Assembly (NCBI GenBank): GCA_026390775.1
Contig: JAPLFF010000007.1
Location: 806,001-870,000 of the forward strand
Source of the DNA: Ignavibacteriales bacterium
GTDB taxonomy: Bacteria > Bacteroidota > Ignavibacteria > Ignavibacteriales > Melioribacteraceae
Direction: 5' to 3'
DNA length: 64,000 nt
Shown here: in pieces, positions 29,548 to 49,862 of the stretch
Numbering within the stretch: position 1 is the first letter of the stretch
Layout: each line of letters opens with the position of its first letter
The notes under the pieces: model-generated
The model's database searches: none
The model's input: only the letters and a program-made list of their open reading frames with translations
Told to the model about the DNA's origin: nothing
Program-made: the position numbers and the translations under genes

Positions 29548-30345
29548 CTACCTTACCTCCATATCTAAATTAGAGTAATAAACTTTTGGTTCTGTGTTGA
29601 GCGATGGTTTAAGAATTCCGATTTTATTCATTCTTAAGAAACGTACTAATGGACTTGATTTTTTGTTCAACTCGCCGAAAACTCTTGCTTGAGTCGGGCA
29701 CACTTCAACGCATGCCGGCAATTTATCTTGAACAATTCTATGATAACAGAAAGTACATTTCTCGGCAGTATGTGTTTCGGGATGTAAGAATCTTGCACCG
29801 TAAGGACATGCTTGTATGCAATATCTGCAGCCGACACAGTAATCTGAATCCACAAGTACTACTCCATCCTCCCCTTTAAATGTTGCACCAACAGGACAAA
29901 CTTGAACGCATGGAGGATTGTCACAATGATTACAAATTTTTGGAACAAAGAAACTTCTTAACATTTTTTGATTTGTTGTGCGAGAATTATCGAAACCGTC
30001 TATTGAACCATTTGGACTGTCAACTTGTACATCACCATCTTCATAGATTCTGTAACGTTCAACCCATGTTCTAAAAAAGAATGGTTCTTTTGGAACATTG
30101 TTTTCGTTTTTACATGCTACAGCACATCTTCCGCATCCAATACATTTATTAATGTCTATTCCCATTCCCCACTTGTGGTTGCTGGGTATATAACCGTTTA
30201 TGAGCATCCATTTTTTTATAGTCTTTAATTTGTCCGTTGAGCCTAGAAATCCAAATGCAATTGATGCAAGCGCAAGTATGGCAATTTTTTTTAGAAAACT
30301 TCTTCTTTCAACTTTTTTATCTGTTTCAATTATATTGTTTTCCAT
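29548..30345 (-). CDS. Tat-exported 4x[4Fe-4S] ferredoxin-like subunit (HybA/DsrO/ActB type)
   Basis: This 265-aa electron-transfer protein has a Tat signal (VERRSFLKKIAILALAS). Four Cys groups follow, each giving ligands for cubane clusters: CIGCGRCAVAC, CNHCDNPPCVQVC, CVGCRYCIQAC, and CTFCYH with CVEVC. The layout is that of NrfC, HybA, DsrO and PsrB, partners of NrfD-type membrane proteins. I start at MENNIIETDKK, whose ATG overlaps the TAA of the upstream octaheme gene (TAATG). A longer frame to 30387 is within that gene. It should link the NrfD subunit to the periplasmic cytochromes. Confidence 0.92.
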   Translation of the reverse strand: MENNIIETDKKVERRSFLKKIAILALASIAFGFLGSTDKLKTIKKWMLINGYIPSNHKWGMGIDINKCIGCGRCAVACKNENNVPKEPFFFRTWVERYRIYEDGDVQVDSPNGSIDGFDNSRTTNQKMLRSFFVPKICNHCDNPPCVQVCPVGATFKGEDGVVLVDSDYCVGCRYCIQACPYGARFLHPETHTAEKCTFCYHRIVQDKLPACVEVCPTQARVFGELNKKSSPLVRFLRMNKIGILKPSLNTEPKVYYSNLDMEVR

Positions 30346-31094
30346 TATTGTGCCTCCGGTAAATGTGGATAGTGACATTGCCAGCAAACATATCTCGGCT
30401 CGTGTGTAGTCATATTGATCCTTGGAATAAATTCATCACCTTTTGCATCTTGGGAATGACACTGACCACAAAATTCTCTGTTTGCAGGTTTGGTTGGTAA
30501 ATATTCCCTCGGGTGTAATTTATGTTTCTCCGTAGATTCATGACATTTAGTACAAGGAATATCCATGTGACTCGAAACCGATTTTGCACTTGAAATTTCA
30601 GCATGGCAAGCGGAACATTCTTTTGGTGTTTGTGGCGGAGTTGGATTGTGCGGATTATGACATGTTACGCAAATTTTTCTCGGATTGTGCGATGCAGATA
30701 CAATTTGTGGAAAGCCTGTAGGTCGAGATGGATTATATTCATGACAAACAGGGCAAAAAATCCTATCCCGCGGTTTTTCCGGTTTGAATTGATCCGGCTC
30801 ATTAACGTGATTAACAGAAGGTCCATGGCAAACTTCGCAAGAAAGATTTTTATGATACCCTGCATTTTTAGTTTTCCATATATCATCATGACAATCGGCA
30901 CATGCTTCCTGTCCTGCATATTGCATTTTTTTATCAGCATTATTTTGAATAGCTCCGGCACGATAATGACCGACCAAGCCAAAATCTTTCGGAGTGAGAA
31001 GCGAAGTGGCTAAAATAAATGCAGTGACTACTACAAGTAAAAGTACAGACAATCGTTTAACCTGTTCCGGAATTTTTTGTAAAAAATTTTTCAT
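30345..31094 (-). CDS. Octaheme cytochrome c with N-terminal anchor
   Basis: This 249-aa protein has one N-terminal membrane segment (VLLLVVVTAFILATSLL) and eight CxxCH sites: CADCH, CEVCH, CPVCH, CVTCH, CSACH, CTKCH, CGQCH and CWQCH. It resembles small multiheme subunits next to NrfD/Fe-S genes, such as ActA-like proteins and the c-type subunits of Geobacter Cbc clusters. It is the first cytochrome gene of the cluster and is coupled to the Fe-S gene by TAATG. It lies 49 bp downstream of the DUF2339-like gene, which could share its transcript. Confidence 0.87.
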   Translation of the reverse strand: MKNFLQKIPEQVKRLSVLLLVVVTAFILATSLLTPKDFGLVGHYRAGAIQNNADKKMQYAGQEACADCHDDIWKTKNAGYHKNLSCEVCHGPSVNHVNEPDQFKPEKPRDRIFCPVCHEYNPSRPTGFPQIVSASHNPRKICVTCHNPHNPTPPQTPKECSACHAEISSAKSVSSHMDIPCTKCHESTEKHKLHPREYLPTKPANREFCGQCHSQDAKGDEFIPRINMTTHEPRYVCWQCHYPHLPEAQ

Positions 31095-31143: not shown

Positions 31144-32787
31144 TCAATTGTTTATTAACTCGCTTCCTTTCTTTCTTCTTGCGTATAAAATTGAAATTGC
31201 CAACAGCACAATTCCTAAAAACATGAAAGAAATAATTCGGTAGCTTGGATCTAAATTTGTTGTTCCAACAAATAGAATGTACACCACCGTTAATAAAAAT
31301 GTTAAAAGCGCCAGCCACCGGTATTTTTTATTCTTAAGAATAATACTCATTACATAGTAACCGATCGCAACTATCGTCCAAGAGAGCCCGACATAATCTT
31401 TAGGAACTATATGATAGAGTGCATAAGGAAAGATGATAAACGCGGAGCCGAGATAAGATAATCTCATTGCGTCAGTTGTTAAATCAAGTCTATGCTTTTG
31501 CCAATTTAAAATACGAGCGCTTATTAATGCCACAATACCAAAACCGAGTGCGATTACACCAATTTTTTCTTCTAATACTAAATAGGAAAAGAATATCATC
31601 AGATACATTATAAAGTTTGCTACTATTATAATTTTTGAACGGAACCAGAGCGCGGTAGCCACTACAACTAAACTCTGCCAGCTTAACCAAACAAAGTATT
31701 CCGGCTTAGGAAAATTATTTACTATTGCAACACTCAATGCCGTGTAACCAAGAATGGCATAAAAGAAAGTTGAATATTTACTTTTTTGTCTCTCATAAAA
31801 CATAATTGAAAGAAGCAAGAAAACACTCGAAGCTATTAACTCAGATAAAGCCGCCGTGCTGCTGAATTTAGAAAGTGCGATTATTAATAATAGAAAAAAA
31901 CATAGAAATGAATTCAATAAAGTATTTAGTATTGAATTAACAGATTCTTTTTCGTTTCGATTTCCGGATAAATTGCCGTAAGCATAAATTAAGCAGTACA
32001 AAAGAAGAAAATAAATATTAATCAATGGAGAACTTTGGAGAGCAATTTTATTACCAGCAACAGGATTACCGATGAACCAAACAAAGTGAGTTATATAGAC
32101 CAAAAGTATTGCATAGGTATAGAACGAATTCCAATCTAAAATTCTTTTTAAGTAAACCGACCACCCGCTGATCAAAACTAGAATAAAAAAGATCAACCAA
32201 TAAAAATCACCGATCAAAGCTGTAATGGAAATTAGCGAGATGCCAAAAGCCATTAGATATATAGATTTTCTCTTAAAAGAAAAAGAAATGTGAAAGATCG
32301 ATACTGCTATCAGCATAAGTAATTCAAGTGTCGGATTTTCAACTGTGGGATTGTTTGAGAAAAAGTGTAACCGTAAAGTTGAAAAGAAAAGAAGAAGTAA
32401 CGCTCCGCCAAAAATATATTGGGAAATAAATTGAAGCGAGCTTTTCCAGTAATTCGATAACCAGAAAAGAAATCCAACTAAAACATATCCTATAAGACTA
32501 GGAAAAAAGGAAGGTAAATTTTGATACGGAAATGTCATTAGAAAAATTATTCCGATCGCAAGAATTACAATTCCAACTTTTGCAAACCAGAATTGTCCTA
32601 TCTGAGTTTCTAATGAATCCGCTCGTTCTGAAATATTTTGAGGCATCAATGAAGGTAATTCAAAATTATCTTCCGAAGGAAGATTCTCAAGATTAAGTTT
32701 CTCTTCAATCCGGGAAATTCTTGCTTCCAAATTTTTCAAGTATGTAATTAATTGATTGTTTACTTCCGATTCGGAGGAAGAATCCAT
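31144..32787 (-). CDS. DUF2339-like polytopic membrane protein
   Basis: This 547-aa protein starts with a soluble coiled coil (residues 10-40, LEARISRIEEKLNLE). The sequence IGQFWFAKVGIVILAIGIIFLM then opens a series of roughly 14-16 hydrophobic helices up to the C-terminus. That layout (coiled coil, then a KVG motif, then many helices) matches the DUF2339 family of unknown function. No catalytic motif is visible. It lies upstream of the respiratory cluster on the same strand; whether it belongs to it functionally is unclear. Confidence 0.72.
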   Translation of the reverse strand: MDSSSESEVNNQLITYLKNLEARISRIEEKLNLENLPSEDNFELPSLMPQNISERADSLETQIGQFWFAKVGIVILAIGIIFLMTFPYQNLPSFFPSLIGYVLVGFLFWLSNYWKSSLQFISQYIFGGALLLLFFSTLRLHFFSNNPTVENPTLELLMLIAVSIFHISFSFKRKSIYLMAFGISLISITALIGDFYWLIFFILVLISGWSVYLKRILDWNSFYTYAILLVYITHFVWFIGNPVAGNKIALQSSPLINIYFLLLYCLIYAYGNLSGNRNEKESVNSILNTLLNSFLCFFLLLIIALSKFSSTAALSELIASSVFLLLSIMFYERQKSKYSTFFYAILGYTALSVAIVNNFPKPEYFVWLSWQSLVVVATALWFRSKIIIVANFIMYLMIFFSYLVLEEKIGVIALGFGIVALISARILNWQKHRLDLTTDAMRLSYLGSAFIIFPYALYHIVPKDYVGLSWTIVAIGYYVMSIILKNKKYRWLALLTFLLTVVYILFVGTTNLDPSYRIISFMFLGIVLLAISILYARRKKGSELINN

Positions 32788-33072: not shown

Positions 33073-33762
33073 TTATTTCTTATCTACTTTCTTTTCAGAT
33101 TTTTCATCGTCTTCTTTTTCTTCAATTATCATATGCTTCATATTCTTACCCATGGAATGCTTTCGCATCATCTTCTCGCCGCCACAGCATGAACATCCGC
33201 AATTGTTTCCGCCCATATGCTTAAAGAACATTAATTTCTCTTTCGGCATGTCTTCATCGCCATCAATCTGAATATTAAAATGTTTCATGCCATTTTCATC
33301 TTTCAAAAACTTCTCAGCTTCATCACCTTCGTAAGTTTTTGTTTCTTCTTTACCGTCTTTCATAGTTGTAACAGTAATTTTTTTGCCACTGTCGTTAACT
33401 TCGACTTTTATATTCTTTTTGTTTTCACCATCTTTTTCATCAGCATCATTATCTTCAGATCTAAACATCATAACGTTGCCGCCTCTCATCTTCATCATTT
33501 TTCCGTCATCACTTTTAAACATAAATCCTTTACGCGAACTACTTCTTAACATACCGACTAATTTTTCAGCATCCTTTCCTTCAAAGACAACATCTTTACC
33601 ATCAGCTTTAATCGTAAGTTTTTCAATCTTACCTTTCAAATTATCAAGTTTAGATTTTGTTTCGTCTTTTTCCTGAGCTAAGATCTTCATTGAGAAAAAT
33701 CCGAGTATCAGAATAATCATTATAGCTAAGAACTTTGATTTGTTTGTTTGAAGTAATTTCAT
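33073..33762 (-). CDS. Secreted acidic Met/His/Cys-rich protein, unknown function
   Basis: This 229-aa protein has a signal peptide (MKLLQTNKSKFLAIMIILIL, cleavage near ILAQE). The mature chain is strongly charged (Asp, Glu and Lys). It shows two similar strand-rich units: LTIKADGKDVVFEGKDAEKLV and ITVTTMKDGKEETKTYEGDEAEKFL. A C-terminal cluster reads NNCGCSCCGGEKMMRKHSMGKNMKHM. The Cys/Met/His cluster could bind a soft metal such as copper, but this is inference. It is transcribed away from a two-component system 128 bp upstream, as envelope-stress or metal-response targets often are. I do not recognise the family. Confidence 0.75.
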   Translation of the reverse strand: MKLLQTNKSKFLAIMIILILGFFSMKILAQEKDETKSKLDNLKGKIEKLTIKADGKDVVFEGKDAEKLVGMLRSSSRKGFMFKSDDGKMMKMRGGNVMMFRSEDNDADEKDGENKKNIKVEVNDSGKKITVTTMKDGKEETKTYEGDEAEKFLKDENGMKHFNIQIDGDEDMPKEKLMFFKHMGGNNCGCSCCGGEKMMRKHSMGKNMKHMIIEEKEDDEKSEKKVDKK

Positions 33763-33877
33763 TTTATTCTCCTAATTGTTTGTGTAAATATACTTTTCGT
33801 ACAACCCAAATACGGAAAACGATCCCTAACTATTAGTTAAAAATTGTTAAAGTAAAGATTTCTTATTTAGATTAAGT

Positions 33878-33885
33878 TAAATTTG
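33878..33885 (+). promoter_or_regulatory. TAAATTTG box just upstream of the sensor-kinase start
   Basis: The octamer fits the TAnnTTTG -7 element of Bacteroidota promoters. It ends 5 bp before the ATG, which would give a leaderless or nearly leaderless mRNA. No TTG at normal -33 spacing is visible. Confidence 0.22.
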
Positions 33886-33890
33886 CGATT

Positions 33891-35459
33891 ATGAAAGAAC
33901 GAAAATTAAAAATTATTATCGCTTTGATGACTATTTCGGTAATTGGACTAATTGCCGTACAGTTTTATTGGATGGCAAATATTATCAAAGTTGAAGAGGA
34001 TCGTTTTCGTAGAACGGTTTTTCATTCTCTGAGAAAAGTTTCTGAAGAAATTGAAAAGAAAGAAGCTGCAACTACAGTTGTTAAAAAGGTATCCAGTGGA
34101 AAAGGGAATGTTTTATTCTTTCTACAGGATGAATCTAAAAATAAACCGATACACTTAGATTCTCTTAGAAAAATGAGTTATCTAAGGATTGATACAAACA
34201 ACCATGGATTTAATTATGAAGTAAAATATTTTGCCGATAATGATACTATGGTTGACCGATTAAAAGCATTCTCGGGCAACAGAAATGCACGTTACTTTAT
34301 TCCTCCCTCTTCATTCGATAAATCAGTTAAGGACACTTCTATTCAGAAACGTCATTTGCTTGTGCAGAATGTTGTTACAGAACTAATGGCTATCAATGCT
34401 AGGAAAAAAATTGAGGAAAGGATCAGCACCGATCAGCTTGAAAAAGATTTGTCGTTTGAATTCAGCGGCAACGGAATCTCCTCCGAATTTTACTTCGGAG
34501 TTAACAGAGCAAACAAAGACAGTTTAACTTTGCTAAAAAAAGGAACAGATACTACAGAATTAAAGAAATCTATTTTTAAAGTAAATTTGTTCCCTGACGA
34601 AATCTTTTTTAATCCAAATCAACTTATTGTTTATTTCCCTCACCAGAAAAGATATATTCTCGCAAGCGTCGGCGGTATGCTTGTTCTCTCAGTAGGTTTG
34701 ATTCTTGTAATTGTGGGTGTTTTTTACAAAACTGTTGAAATGTTTTTAAGTCAGAAAAAAATTACGGCTGTAAAAAACGATCTTATAAATAATATTACTC
34801 ACGAATTTAAAACTCCAATCTCAACTATTTCGATTGCTTGTGAAGCATTAAACGAACCCGGTTTGTTAATTGAAAAGAATTCCGTTACCAGATATTCTAA
34901 AATTATTAAAGAAGAAAACGACCGATTGAAAATGATGGTTGATGCTCTTCTTAATACAGCTGCGCTTGAGAAGAGCGAGTTTAATCTAACGAAAGAGAAA
35001 ATAGACCTACATGAACTAATTCTTTCCGCTGCATCAAAGTTTGAAAATATTATTAATCGAAAAAGCGGTAAAATTAATTTAGAACTTAATGCAAGTCGAG
35101 CCGTTATAACCGGTGATAAATTTCATCTCACAAACATTATGAATAATCTGATCGACAACGCGATCAAGTACAACGAAAGGGCGCCGGAAATTAGAATATC
35201 AACCCGAGATGAGAACAGGACAATAATAATAACAATAAAAGATAACGGCATTGGTATTTCCAGAGAACATCTAATTAAAATATTCGAAACATTCTACCGA
35301 ATTTCCAGCGGCAATATTCAGAACGTACGTGGAAATGGAATTGGCTTGAGCTATGCTAAAAAAATTGTTGAAACATTAGGCGGTGATATTTCTGTAACAA
35401 GTGAGGTTGGTGTTGGTAGTGAATTTAAAATTATTCTTCCAAATAATGGTGTTGAGTGA
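33891..35459 (+). CDS. Two-component sensor histidine kinase
   Basis: This 522-aa kinase has a transmembrane helix at residues 9-28, a periplasmic sensor region of about 230 residues, and a second helix near 257-278. The dimerisation/phosphoacceptor helix has ITHEFKTPISTIS (His near 303). The ATPase domain has the N box NNLIDNAIKYNE, G1 DNGIGISREH, F box FETFYRISSGN and G2 GNGIGLSYA. There is no HAMP domain. The stop overlaps the GTG start of the response regulator (GTGA). The sensor domain has no recognised ligand; the divergent secreted protein is a candidate target or partner. Confidence 0.94.
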   Translation: MKERKLKIIIALMTISVIGLIAVQFYWMANIIKVEEDRFRRTVFHSLRKVSEEIEKKEAATTVVKKVSSGKGNVLFFLQDESKNKPIHLDSLRKMSYLRIDTNNHGFNYEVKYFADNDTMVDRLKAFSGNRNARYFIPPSSFDKSVKDTSIQKRHLLVQNVVTELMAINARKKIEERISTDQLEKDLSFEFSGNGISSEFYFGVNRANKDSLTLLKKGTDTTELKKSIFKVNLFPDEIFFNPNQLIVYFPHQKRYILASVGGMLVLSVGLILVIVGVFYKTVEMFLSQKKITAVKNDLINNITHEFKTPISTISIACEALNEPGLLIEKNSVTRYSKIIKEENDRLKMMVDALLNTAALEKSEFNLTKEKIDLHELILSAASKFENIINRKSGKINLELNASRAVITGDKFHLTNIMNNLIDNAIKYNERAPEIRISTRDENRTIIITIKDNGIGISREHLIKIFETFYRISSGNIQNVRGNGIGLSYAKKIVETLGGDISVTSEVGVGSEFKIILPNNGVE

Positions 35460-36148
35460 AACAGATTGCAAAAATACTTTTAGTTGAAGATGACACAAAC
35501 CTTGGAACAATTTTAAAAGAATTTTTATCCGTTAAGGGATTTGAAATCGTTCAAGCCATTAATGGAGAAGAGGGGTTTGAGCAATTCAGAAAAAAGAAAT
35601 ACGATATTTGTTTGATAGACATAATGATGCCGAAAATGGACGGCTTTACTCTTGCAAAAAAAATCCGCATGATAGATAAACAAACTCCGTTTCTTTTTCT
35701 TACAGCTAAAGCAATGCTTGATGATAAGGTCGAGGGTTTCAAAATCGGCGCCGATGATTATGTTACTAAACCATTCAGCATGGAAGAATTGATCTTGCGT
35801 ATCAATGCAATACTAAAGCGAAGTAAGATACCGCAAGACGAAATTGAAAAAATAGAATTTAAGATCGGCTCTTATTTATTTAATTATGATAGACGTACAT
35901 TAGTTATCCAACACATTGAACAAAAACTTACACCAAAAGAATGTGAACTTCTTCGGTTGTTATGTTTATATGAGAATAAAGTTCTTGAAAGATCTGAAGC
36001 GTTGACAAGGATATGGCGCGATGATAATTATTTCAATGCCAGAAGTATGGATGTGTATATAACAAAACTTCGTAACTATCTTAAACAAGATAAATCAATT
36101 GAGCTGGTAAATGTTCACGGGACCGGCTACAAATTAATGACCAAATAA
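35456..36148 (+). CDS. OmpR-family response regulator
   Basis: This 230-aa protein has a receiver domain with the acidic pair in LLVEDD, phospho-acceptor Asp55 in CLIDIMMPKMDG, Thr in FLTAKA and Lys in YVTKPF. A winged-helix DNA-binding domain follows (LTPKECELLRLLC, then SMDVYITKLRNYLKQD and NVHGTGYKL). The start is GTG within the kinase stop (overlap of 4 bp), so it is the cognate regulator. Likely controlled genes include the divergent 33073-33762 gene; this rests on position only. Confidence 0.95.
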   Translation: MKQIAKILLVEDDTNLGTILKEFLSVKGFEIVQAINGEEGFEQFRKKKYDICLIDIMMPKMDGFTLAKKIRMIDKQTPFLFLTAKAMLDDKVEGFKIGADDYVTKPFSMEELILRINAILKRSKIPQDEIEKIEFKIGSYLFNYDRRTLVIQHIEQKLTPKECELLRLLCLYENKVLERSEALTRIWRDDNYFNARSMDVYITKLRNYLKQDKSIELVNVHGTGYKLMTK

Positions 36149-48130: not shown

Positions 48131-48847
48131 TTATTTTGCATCAACAAAAGAATATCCGGCACTGCGGATACTTTTTATATAAACAGGGTTATTAGGATCG
48201 GGTTCAAAATATTTACGCAGCCGTGCAATAAAATTATCAACTGTTCTTGTTTCAATTTCCGGATTTAGATGCCAGACATTTTCCAGAAGTTCTTTTCTGG
48301 AAACAATCTTCCCTTTTCTTTCGATCAAATATTTTAATACCATCGCTTCACGCTGCGTCAATGCAATTTTTTTTGATCCGCTTAAACAATTCAGATTTTC
48401 AAAATCAATTTTGTTATTACCGAATTGATATAATGGTGGTAACCCGGCAAACGATTGATACCACATCTTTCGCTTTAACATTCCCTTTACACGAAGCAAT
48501 AGTTCCTGCAGATTGAACGGTTTTGTTAAATAGTCATCCGCTCCTGCTTCAAGTCCTCTAACTTTATCTGCAGCTGTAGTTCTTGCTGTCAGCATAAGAA
48601 TCGGCATCTGAGGAGATTTAGCACGTATTTTTTCCGCTACTTCATAACCATCAAAATACGGAAGCATTATATCTAGAATGATCAGATCATAAACCTTAGA
48701 ATCAAAAAAATTCAATGCCTGTTTTCCATCTTTTGCGCAATCAATAATATAACCTTCGTCGGTTAAGTTATATTCAAGACCAACAGCAAGTGTCTCTTCA
48801 TCTTCAACCAATAAGATCTTTGAATTCTTAAATGAATTATTCTCCAT
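48131..48847 (-). CDS. OmpR-family response regulator
   Basis: This 238-aa regulator has a receiver domain with ILLVEDEE, phospho-acceptor Asp59 in IILDIMLPYFDG, LTARTTAADKVRGLEAGADDYLTKPF, and a winged-helix domain (ALTQREAMVLKYLIERKG, TVDNFIARLRKYFEPD, IRSAGYSFV). The start overlaps the kinase stop by 11 bp, pairing it with the upstream sensor. Targets are unknown; nothing divergent lies nearby. Confidence 0.95.
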   Translation of the reverse strand: MENNSFKNSKILLVEDEETLAVGLEYNLTDEGYIIDCAKDGKQALNFFDSKVYDLIILDIMLPYFDGYEVAEKIRAKSPQMPILMLTARTTAADKVRGLEAGADDYLTKPFNLQELLLRVKGMLKRKMWYQSFAGLPPLYQFGNNKIDFENLNCLSGSKKIALTQREAMVLKYLIERKGKIVSRKELLENVWHLNPEIETRTVDNFIARLRKYFEPDPNNPVYIKSIRSAGYSFVDAK

Positions 48848-49862
48848 CTTGCTTTTCCAAATATTTCTGTTTTTGAGCAGTCTTTCTCAATAATGAATTA
48901 ATATAAAACTTTTTAGATGTTTGATATATCGGCAATTCAATTCTTATGCACGTCCCTTTATTTATTCCTTCACTATAAGCTGAAACTTTTCCGCCATGCT
49001 GTTTAATTATTCCTTTCACCCAATATAAACCAAGCCCTGTACCTTTAACATTAGGAATATTTTTATTACTGATCCGCAAAAATTTATAAAATATTTTTTT
49101 CTGATATTTTGCAGAGATACCAATACCATTATCAATGAACTCTATCAATATATGTTTTTGATGTGTTGACAGCTTAACCAATATTTCAGCATTGCCTGAT
49201 GAATATTTTTTTGCGTTGTCGGTTAAATTATCAAATACTATCTGCATGGAATCTTTATCAATCACGCAATTACACAATGTGCTTCCTTCTATTTTTACAT
49301 TTGCCTTTGGGATCCGGAATTGTTCAATAGAGTTTTCTATTAATTGCCGGAATATGCTGTCTGCATCATATACTTGATAATTGTGCACAATTCTTTTTTG
49401 TTCCAAATGCGATAGTTCTAAAATTGAATTAATAAGTTTCTTCAGCCGGTTTGCATCACGAGTCATTAAGGCATAAAATTCTTTTTGTTTTTCTTTTGGA
49501 ACATCTTTGGTGTCTAAAGTTTCGAGATAAAGTTGAATAGACGCAAGCGGTGATTTTAATTCATGTGTTACATTCGCAATAAAATTATCATAAAGACGTG
49601 TGAGTTTCATCTGCACCGTAAGATTTCTAAAAAACAAAAAAATAGCAACAGCAACACAAGCAATTAAGATGATACCGAATACAAAAACGCCAACATTGGG
49701 GCTGTCCAAAATTATTTTGGGGGAAAGTTTATCACCAACCTGCTTAAAGATTAGATAATTGGAAACATACCAATAAATCCAAAGCCCCAATAATCCCATC
49801 CAGGCAATTTGTGCAAATACAAATGCGAATATTAAAAATAAAAGAGAACGGCTTTTTTTCAT
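48837..49862 (-). CDS. Two-component sensor histidine kinase
   Basis: This 341-aa kinase has two membrane helices (residues 5-33 and 57-78) with only a short periplasmic loop between. The phospho-acceptor is His100 in NVTHELKSPLASIQLYLETL. The ATPase domain has DNLTDNAKKYS, DNGIGISAKYQ, KFLRISNKN and GTGLGLYWV. The small external loop suggests sensing within the membrane or through a partner. I start at MKKSRSLLFL (49862), 16 bp after the M49 peptidase stop. A longer frame to 49982 overlaps that gene. Confidence 0.93.
   Translation of the reverse strand: MKKSRSLLFLIFAFVFAQIAWMGLLGLWIYWYVSNYLIFKQVGDKLSPKIILDSPNVGVFVFGIILIACVAVAIFLFFRNLTVQMKLTRLYDNFIANVTHELKSPLASIQLYLETLDTKDVPKEKQKEFYALMTRDANRLKKLINSILELSHLEQKRIVHNYQVYDADSIFRQLIENSIEQFRIPKANVKIEGSTLCNCVIDKDSMQIVFDNLTDNAKKYSSGNAEILVKLSTHQKHILIEFIDNGIGISAKYQKKIFYKFLRISNKNIPNVKGTGLGLYWVKGIIKQHGGKVSAYSEGINKGTCIRIELPIYQTSKKFYINSLLRKTAQKQKYLEKQDGE

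Follow-up and report, generated by a model that had tools for sequence, protein, structure and literature searches.

A direct-repeat box common to an envelope-type two-component system and its divergent secreted partner in Ignavibacteriales

ZraP/ZraSR and CusRS each place a secreted, metal-linked protein with a His/Met/Cys-rich stretch beside a two-component system. In the Cpx system of Enterobacteria and Vibrio, the CpxA kinase and the OmpR-type regulator CpxR are accompanied by cpxP, a divergent gene for a secreted accessory protein. In its excerpted text, one account includes CpxP, Spy, DegP, and DsbA among the Cpx targets, and describes CpxP as damping CpxA while being non-essential for most cues (PMC6737893). 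For the RprXY system of Bacteroides and Porphyromonas, excerpts of two accounts describe rprX as adjoining rprY in Bacteroidetes (PMC6032018), and RprY of Porphyromonas gingivalis as governing stress genes, binding chaperone promoters, and being a likely repressor of cytoplasmic chaperones (PMC3646045). Among OmpR/PhoB regulators, those of the PhoB type bind head-to-tail direct repeats about 11 nt apart, according to the excerpted text of PMC4415409.

The locus considered here lies in a window of 64,000 nucleotides (positions 806001-870000 of contig 7, G000:C7) from the 3.0-Mb genome of an Ignavibacteriales bacterium. Open reading frames and Pfam matches confirm the layout read by an initial annotation: a sensor kinase with a large extracytoplasmic domain and its OmpR-type regulator, divergent from a 229-residue exported protein, here called SEC (Table 1). 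The locus is real, conserved, and more organised than that annotation could see, an envelope two-component theme with an unrecognised family of secreted partner. New here is the direct-repeat box common to SEC and the kinase and, within one genus, to secreted-peptidase genes. None of the titles and abstract openings retrieved from open-licence PMC papers describes the system; an earlier description elsewhere is possible.

Table 1. Features of the SEC/kinase/regulator locus, in window coordinates
Feature	Position	Strand	Basis and remarks
SEC, exported protein, unrecognised family	33073..33762	-	ORF, 229 aa
Sec-type signal peptide of SEC, about residues 1-29	33676..33762	-	By eye from sequence
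SEC unit 1, residues 38-78, bba-like	33529..33651	-	hhalign to unit 2; low-confidence model
SEC unit 2, residues 112-158, bba-like	33289..33429	-	Alignment, hhalign
Clade-specific Cys/Met/His-rich insert of SEC, residues 185-212, CGCSCC at 188-193	33127..33210	-	Alignment, Cys count, tree
TATTTGGG, possible promoter element, 23 nt downstream of box	33805..33812	-	By eye, weak
Direct-repeat box TTTAACAATTTTTAAC, presumed regulator operator	33836..33851	-	Alignment; 39 nt to kinase start codon
Sensor histidine kinase	33891..35459	+	ORF, 522 aa
Extracytoplasmic sensor region, about residues 30-257 of kinase	33978..34661	+	Sequence, model
OmpR/PhoB-type response regulator	35456..36148	+	ORF, 230 aa; nearest NCBIfam model RprY, below cut-off

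The trio and its conservation

The kinase carries HisKA and HATPase_c domains (Pfam), with a presumed phospho-acceptor, His304, in NITHEFKTP. Its sensor region spans about 230 residues between two helices interpreted as membrane helices. No second match to this region was found in the genome, where the 34 other kinase matches are restricted to the core and start at residue 262 or later. A Foldseek search with the region returned no match at E<=0.001. In a comparison with PDC/PAS-like periplasmic sensor domains, its predicted model aligned (VIA-align) with a WalK model (9a5d; Z 8.3, 160 residues, rmsd 4.1) and, weakly, with the CusS sensor domain (5ku5; Z 6.3, 108 residues, rmsd 3.7), the latter score lying in a range that may reflect just a common arrangement. 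With the heavy-metal sensor kinase model TIGR01386, the kinase scores 107.6 bits against a cut-off of 292.55, through the core only (residues 300-514).

The regulator is of the OmpR/PhoB type, matching both a receiver (Response_reg, PF00072, 103.7 bits) and a winged-helix C domain (Trans_reg_C, PF00486, 61.4 bits); its GTG start codon overlaps the kinase stop. Its likeness to RprXY lies in the RprY model (NF051850), which it matches best in its genome (311.5 bits) and among NCBIfam models (312 bits; next model, 187), although it stays under the cut-off of 370. Orthology with CpxR is not indicated (123 bits with NF008199, against a cut-off of 341).

Adjoining SEC is a gene for a DUF2339 membrane protein (31144-32787, minus strand), orthologues of which lie beside SEC in loci L031-L038 of the genus and in L063. 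The window also encodes a multihaem cytochrome (Cytochrome_C7) adjoining a 4Fe-4S ferredoxin-like protein, recognised by eye (29548-31094, minus strand), and a second two-component pair, a kinase and a regulator, the latter with 157 bits to the RprY model (48140-49691, minus strand).

A class sample of 391 genomes was searched with profiles of SEC (E<=0.001) and of the sensor (E<=1e-10; full-length set, E<=1e-45). SEC was matched in 40 genomes, two of them at merely about 1e-3, and the sensor in 65, many partially and 25 at full length. Conservation of the trio, which the initial annotation had proposed as a check, is borne out: by coordinates, SEC lies upstream of the kinase in 24 of the 25 full-length-sensor genomes, at a distance within 0.3 kb in 22, of 0.9 kb in G243, and of 1.5 kb in G075. 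Seen from the SEC side, the kinase is adjacent in 25 of the 40 genomes, counting G025 with its broken kinase, and SEC has no sensor match alongside in the other 15. The annotation would have been contradicted by homologues always lying away from two-component genes, and they do not. The trio is more than a chance arrangement: together with the shared box, it recurs in relatives.

The twenty-fifth full-length-sensor genome, G010, keeps the kinase, the regulator, and the box, with SEC reduced to its C-terminal tail (L158, about 2600-2990). It belongs to the same genus, and its SEC loss is either a natural deletion or a MAG artefact. Because G010 also keeps two target boxes, SEC would seem dispensable for the circuit; by analogy, this agrees with the non-essentiality of CpxP. 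In three f19 genomes, the sensor is matched over nearly its full length (E 1e-33 to 1e-40) and SEC is missing.

Local rearrangements were seen as well. The SEC/kinase junction is duplicated in tandem (L060:5229-5874 and G243:C6:1675-2284), so that in G243 the gap between SEC and kinase holds a short second SEC copy and an N-terminal kinase fragment. A 465-codon frame, by eye a serine hydrolase with TPRs, separates kinase and SEC in L062 (4437-5979), with the box still 39 bp from the kinase.

A phylum sample of 395 genomes yielded 23 with SEC, all in the window's own order and none outside it. Beyond this order, the class sample gave one clear match (G067, E 5e-41) and one doubtful match (G241, E 8e-4). 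The 24 SEC relatives that carry names are all MAGs, titled Melioribacter, Melioribacteraceae, Stygiobacter, or Ignavibacteria, -iales, -iaceae, or -iae, with a few 'Bacteroidetes' or 'Chlorobiota'.

The intergenic box and its copies elsewhere

TTTAAC-N4-TTTAAC is invariant in an alignment of ten SEC/kinase intergenic regions. All but one of the 26 linked loci have the box, whereas shuffles predict 0.0035 loci; these 26 include L048, L050, and L070, with the kinase cut or broken, and L060, for which the region by the kinase fragment was taken. The first half-site lies 38-40 bp from the kinase start in 23 of the 25 box loci (111 bp in L041, 59 bp in L043), and many linked loci contain three to five TTAAC at steps of 10, 10, and 11. 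Among ten SEC loci without an adjacent kinase, two of which are one locus fetched twice, nine lack the box upstream of SEC, L040 being the sole exception. The possible promoter element downstream of the box resembles, weakly and by eye, the TAnnTTTG element of Bacteroidetes. With the trio conserved and an operator-like box shared, the initial proposal that the secreted protein is a target of the divergent envelope system is well supported.

The pattern TTTAACANNNTTTAAC occurs at 68 sites in 15 sensor-bearing genomes, compared with 12 of the reversed pattern. No enrichment is seen in 16 family genomes that lack the sensor (16 sites versus 26); of these 16 sites, 3 are intergenic and none adjoins a reference target. 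Ten genomes of the window's genus hold 51 exact sites: the ten SEC/kinase boxes and 41 others, all of which were inspected. By our own ORF calls, 39 of these 41 are intergenic; the remaining two lie inside ORFs in L144 and in L151, the latter 87 bp short of the ORF's end, with an LTXXQ gene downstream. Of the reversed-pattern control sites, 6 of 10 are inside ORFs. The 41 sites precede genes for S46 peptidases (9), M28 peptidases (8, one of which, L139, lies at a contig end and was assigned from the likeness of its promoter), Tricorn/PA-M28 pairs (6), LTXXQ proteins (4), M13 peptidases (2), TonB/outer-membrane proteins (8), and others (4), classes being assigned by BLAST to one reference protein each, with the references named by Pfam. 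The window's own genome has four exact sites, all intergenic: at SEC/kinase, M28, S46, and TonB. Its S46 frame (L131:1885-2904; G000:C7 near 615,000) encodes 339 residues versus 726 in a close relative (L155), so this gene looks interrupted or wrongly assembled.

At several targets the box has been kept while its flanks diverged. Its orientation is opposite before three target classes. Before SEC, M28, and S46 it lies on the gene's strand, upstream of an element that by eye is AT-rich and promoter-like. Outside the window's genus, the box was found at SEC/kinase alone: of 10 non-SEC sites in four other genera, 7 fall within ORFs and none adjoins a reference target. The SEC box is also the only site in G018 and, within the window's genus, in G004. 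By the exact pattern, a candidate regulon is demonstrated for most of one genus only. With one mismatch allowed, the window's genome gives 27 sites, barely above the 19 of the reversed-pattern control; intergenic positions account for 8 of its 23 one-mismatch sites, and the targets so added are therefore weak on their own. These are a Tricorn/PA-M28 pair, a gene resembling LTXXQ and Metal_resist below both cut-offs, an M16 peptidase, and a thioredoxin-like gene (L189), which has a one-mismatch site only.

SEC and its Cys/Met/His-rich insert

SEC consists of a signal peptide, two related units, and a tail. Its predicted structure is poor overall (pLDDT 43.6), and includes a hydrophobic helix at residues 7-26. 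The two units are related to each other (hhalign probability 81, E 1.2e-5), and the tail showed no relation to either by hhalign. Unit 2 has most of the invariant columns of the homologue alignment outside the N-terminal third, and several homologues contain more than one matching stretch. SEC falls below every Pfam cut-off (best SCP2, E 0.058), matches no NCBIfam model, and has no convincing relative among solved structures in the PDB (best E 0.63); the family is indeed unrecognised, as first noted. LTXXQ (PF07813, CpxP/Spy) is absent from its Pfam matches at E<=1. The protein had been called acidic, wrongly (44 D+E versus 48 K+R). It had also been described as ending in CGCSCCGG and a Met/His-rich tail: this stretch is real (residues 188-211), but the last 18 or so residues are chiefly Lys, Glu, and Asp.

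Of the 33 SEC proteins in the count, 19 have a Cys cluster, defined as at least three Cys in ten residues; the set leaves out L050 (broken frame), L051 (cut), L053 (doubtful), L078/L049 (nine scattered Cys), and second copies of twice-fetched loci. In a midpoint-rooted tree of 24 kinases, 23 of which carry a SEC label, one branch (support 100/99) parts the 16 with Cys-plus SEC from the 7 with Cys-minus SEC, and linkage and box are found on both sides. Gain of the insert in one clade is the simpler reading, though not the sole one given midpoint rooting. The cluster also occurs in L067 and L069, where SEC has no kinase beside it, and so is independent of linkage. The Cys and Met residues, whose lack of conservation was to count against the initial annotation, are kept within one clade and not across the family. 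As only one clade has the insert, an ancestral metal-binding role for SEC is unlikely.

A proposed circuit and its alternatives

The reading toward which we lean, modestly, is an envelope two-component system resembling RprXY. Its regulator would bind the box and control both SEC, as a feedback or buffering accessory, and a regulon of extracytoplasmic peptidases. The kinase would sense a condition outside the inner membrane, and the regulator would bind tandem TTTAAC half-sites on a 10-11 bp phase, one common box governing both SEC and the kinase-regulator operon. In the genus, further copies would govern secreted peptidases (M28, S46, Tricorn-like with PA-M28, and M13), LTXXQ proteins, and outer-membrane receptors, together a putative regulon of extracytoplasmic proteolysis or proteostasis. 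Box strand and promoter-like element suggest that the regulator may activate SEC, M28, and S46; a repressing role is conceivable too, as RprY of P. gingivalis is described as a likely repressor. SEC itself would be an accessory in the periplasm under the same control, most likely damping the sensor by feedback or buffering it by binding clients or peptides, and in one clade the thiol- and Met-rich insert may add metal or redox input. A bolder version is doubtful: that SEC represents a new class of periplasmic accessory, setting the threshold of an envelope system over a secreted-peptidase regulon, which one clade turned into a metal or thiol-redox input by Cys/Met insertion.

The analogy first drawn with CpxP and CpxAR was one of layout. 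As such it stands, and it is strengthened because LTXXQ genes sit behind exact boxes; Spy/CpxP-type proteins and proteases are among the targets of Cpx and the candidate targets here, going by the excerpted Cpx account (PMC6737893). It does not extend to SEC, which is no LTXXQ protein, nor to the peptidases, which are of M28, S46, M13, and Tricorn type here and DegP in Cpx. The Cpx box differs in sequence from the TTTAAC box. The RprXY accounts, as excerpted, contain no SEC-like gene or binding-site consensus (PMC3646045, PMC6032018). Pho boxes (PhoB/PhoP) are alike in their head-to-tail repeats about 11 nt apart (PMC4415409, excerpted), whereas the half-site here is TTTAAC and the first step 10 bp. 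A Pho-regulon reading was dropped, as no phosphate gene was recognised among the classified targets.

A secreted protein beside a two-component system, with a His/Met/Cys-rich stretch, recalls ZraP/ZraSR and CusRS, ZraP being likened by description. The locus might accordingly serve metal homeostasis, with SEC scavenging copper, silver, or zinc through its insert and the kinase sensing metal. The Cys cluster, found throughout one side of the kinase tree (all 16 loci with SEC), speaks for this, as do the weak alignment with the CusS sensor domain, the LTXXQ-like gene near a one-mismatch box that also resembles Metal_resist, and the presence of M28, M13, and M16, which are metallopeptidases, among box-bearing or one-mismatch targets. 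The insert is limited to one clade, however, and linkage and box persist in the 7 of 23 labelled loci whose SEC has no Cys cluster, which lowers a pure metal-sponge reading and weakens the metal sensing first suggested. Moreover, the CusS score may mean merely a common arrangement, the kinase is far under the heavy-metal cut-off, and no metal-efflux gene was recognised among the classified targets (the four 'other' sites lie outside the classification). We consider metal homeostasis unlikely. Also improbable is nutrient scavenging, in which peptides or starvation would be sensed, secreted peptidases and TonB receptors deployed to feed on protein, and peptides bound or delivered by SEC. The sharing of the box by M28, S46 (Dpp7-like), M13, and Tricorn-like peptidases and TonB-type receptors fits this, but LTXXQ targets suit envelope stress better, and SEC reaches no transporter or binding-protein family.

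That the regulator binds the box is something we infer. The box could instead belong to a different regulator, or be a general promoter element whose co-occurrence with the kinase is a phylogenetic accident: at least two further regulators encoded in the genome match the RprY model at E<=1e-40, and in L040 the box occurs although no kinase is adjacent. Against this, the box follows the kinase through nearly all linked loci, is absent from nine of the ten unlinked SEC promoters, and is not enriched in the sensor-less genomes; its head-to-tail repeats also suit OmpR/PhoB regulators, by the excerpted PMC4415409. We regard such separate ownership as very improbable.

Together, these results outline a predicted envelope circuit in Ignavibacteriota, including its operator and regulon, and point to an unrecognised family of secreted proteins whose promoter can be tested. 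Moreover, the box, the trio, and what may be a natural loss of SEC in G010 make it possible to test outside Proteobacteria what divergent secreted partners do for their kinases.
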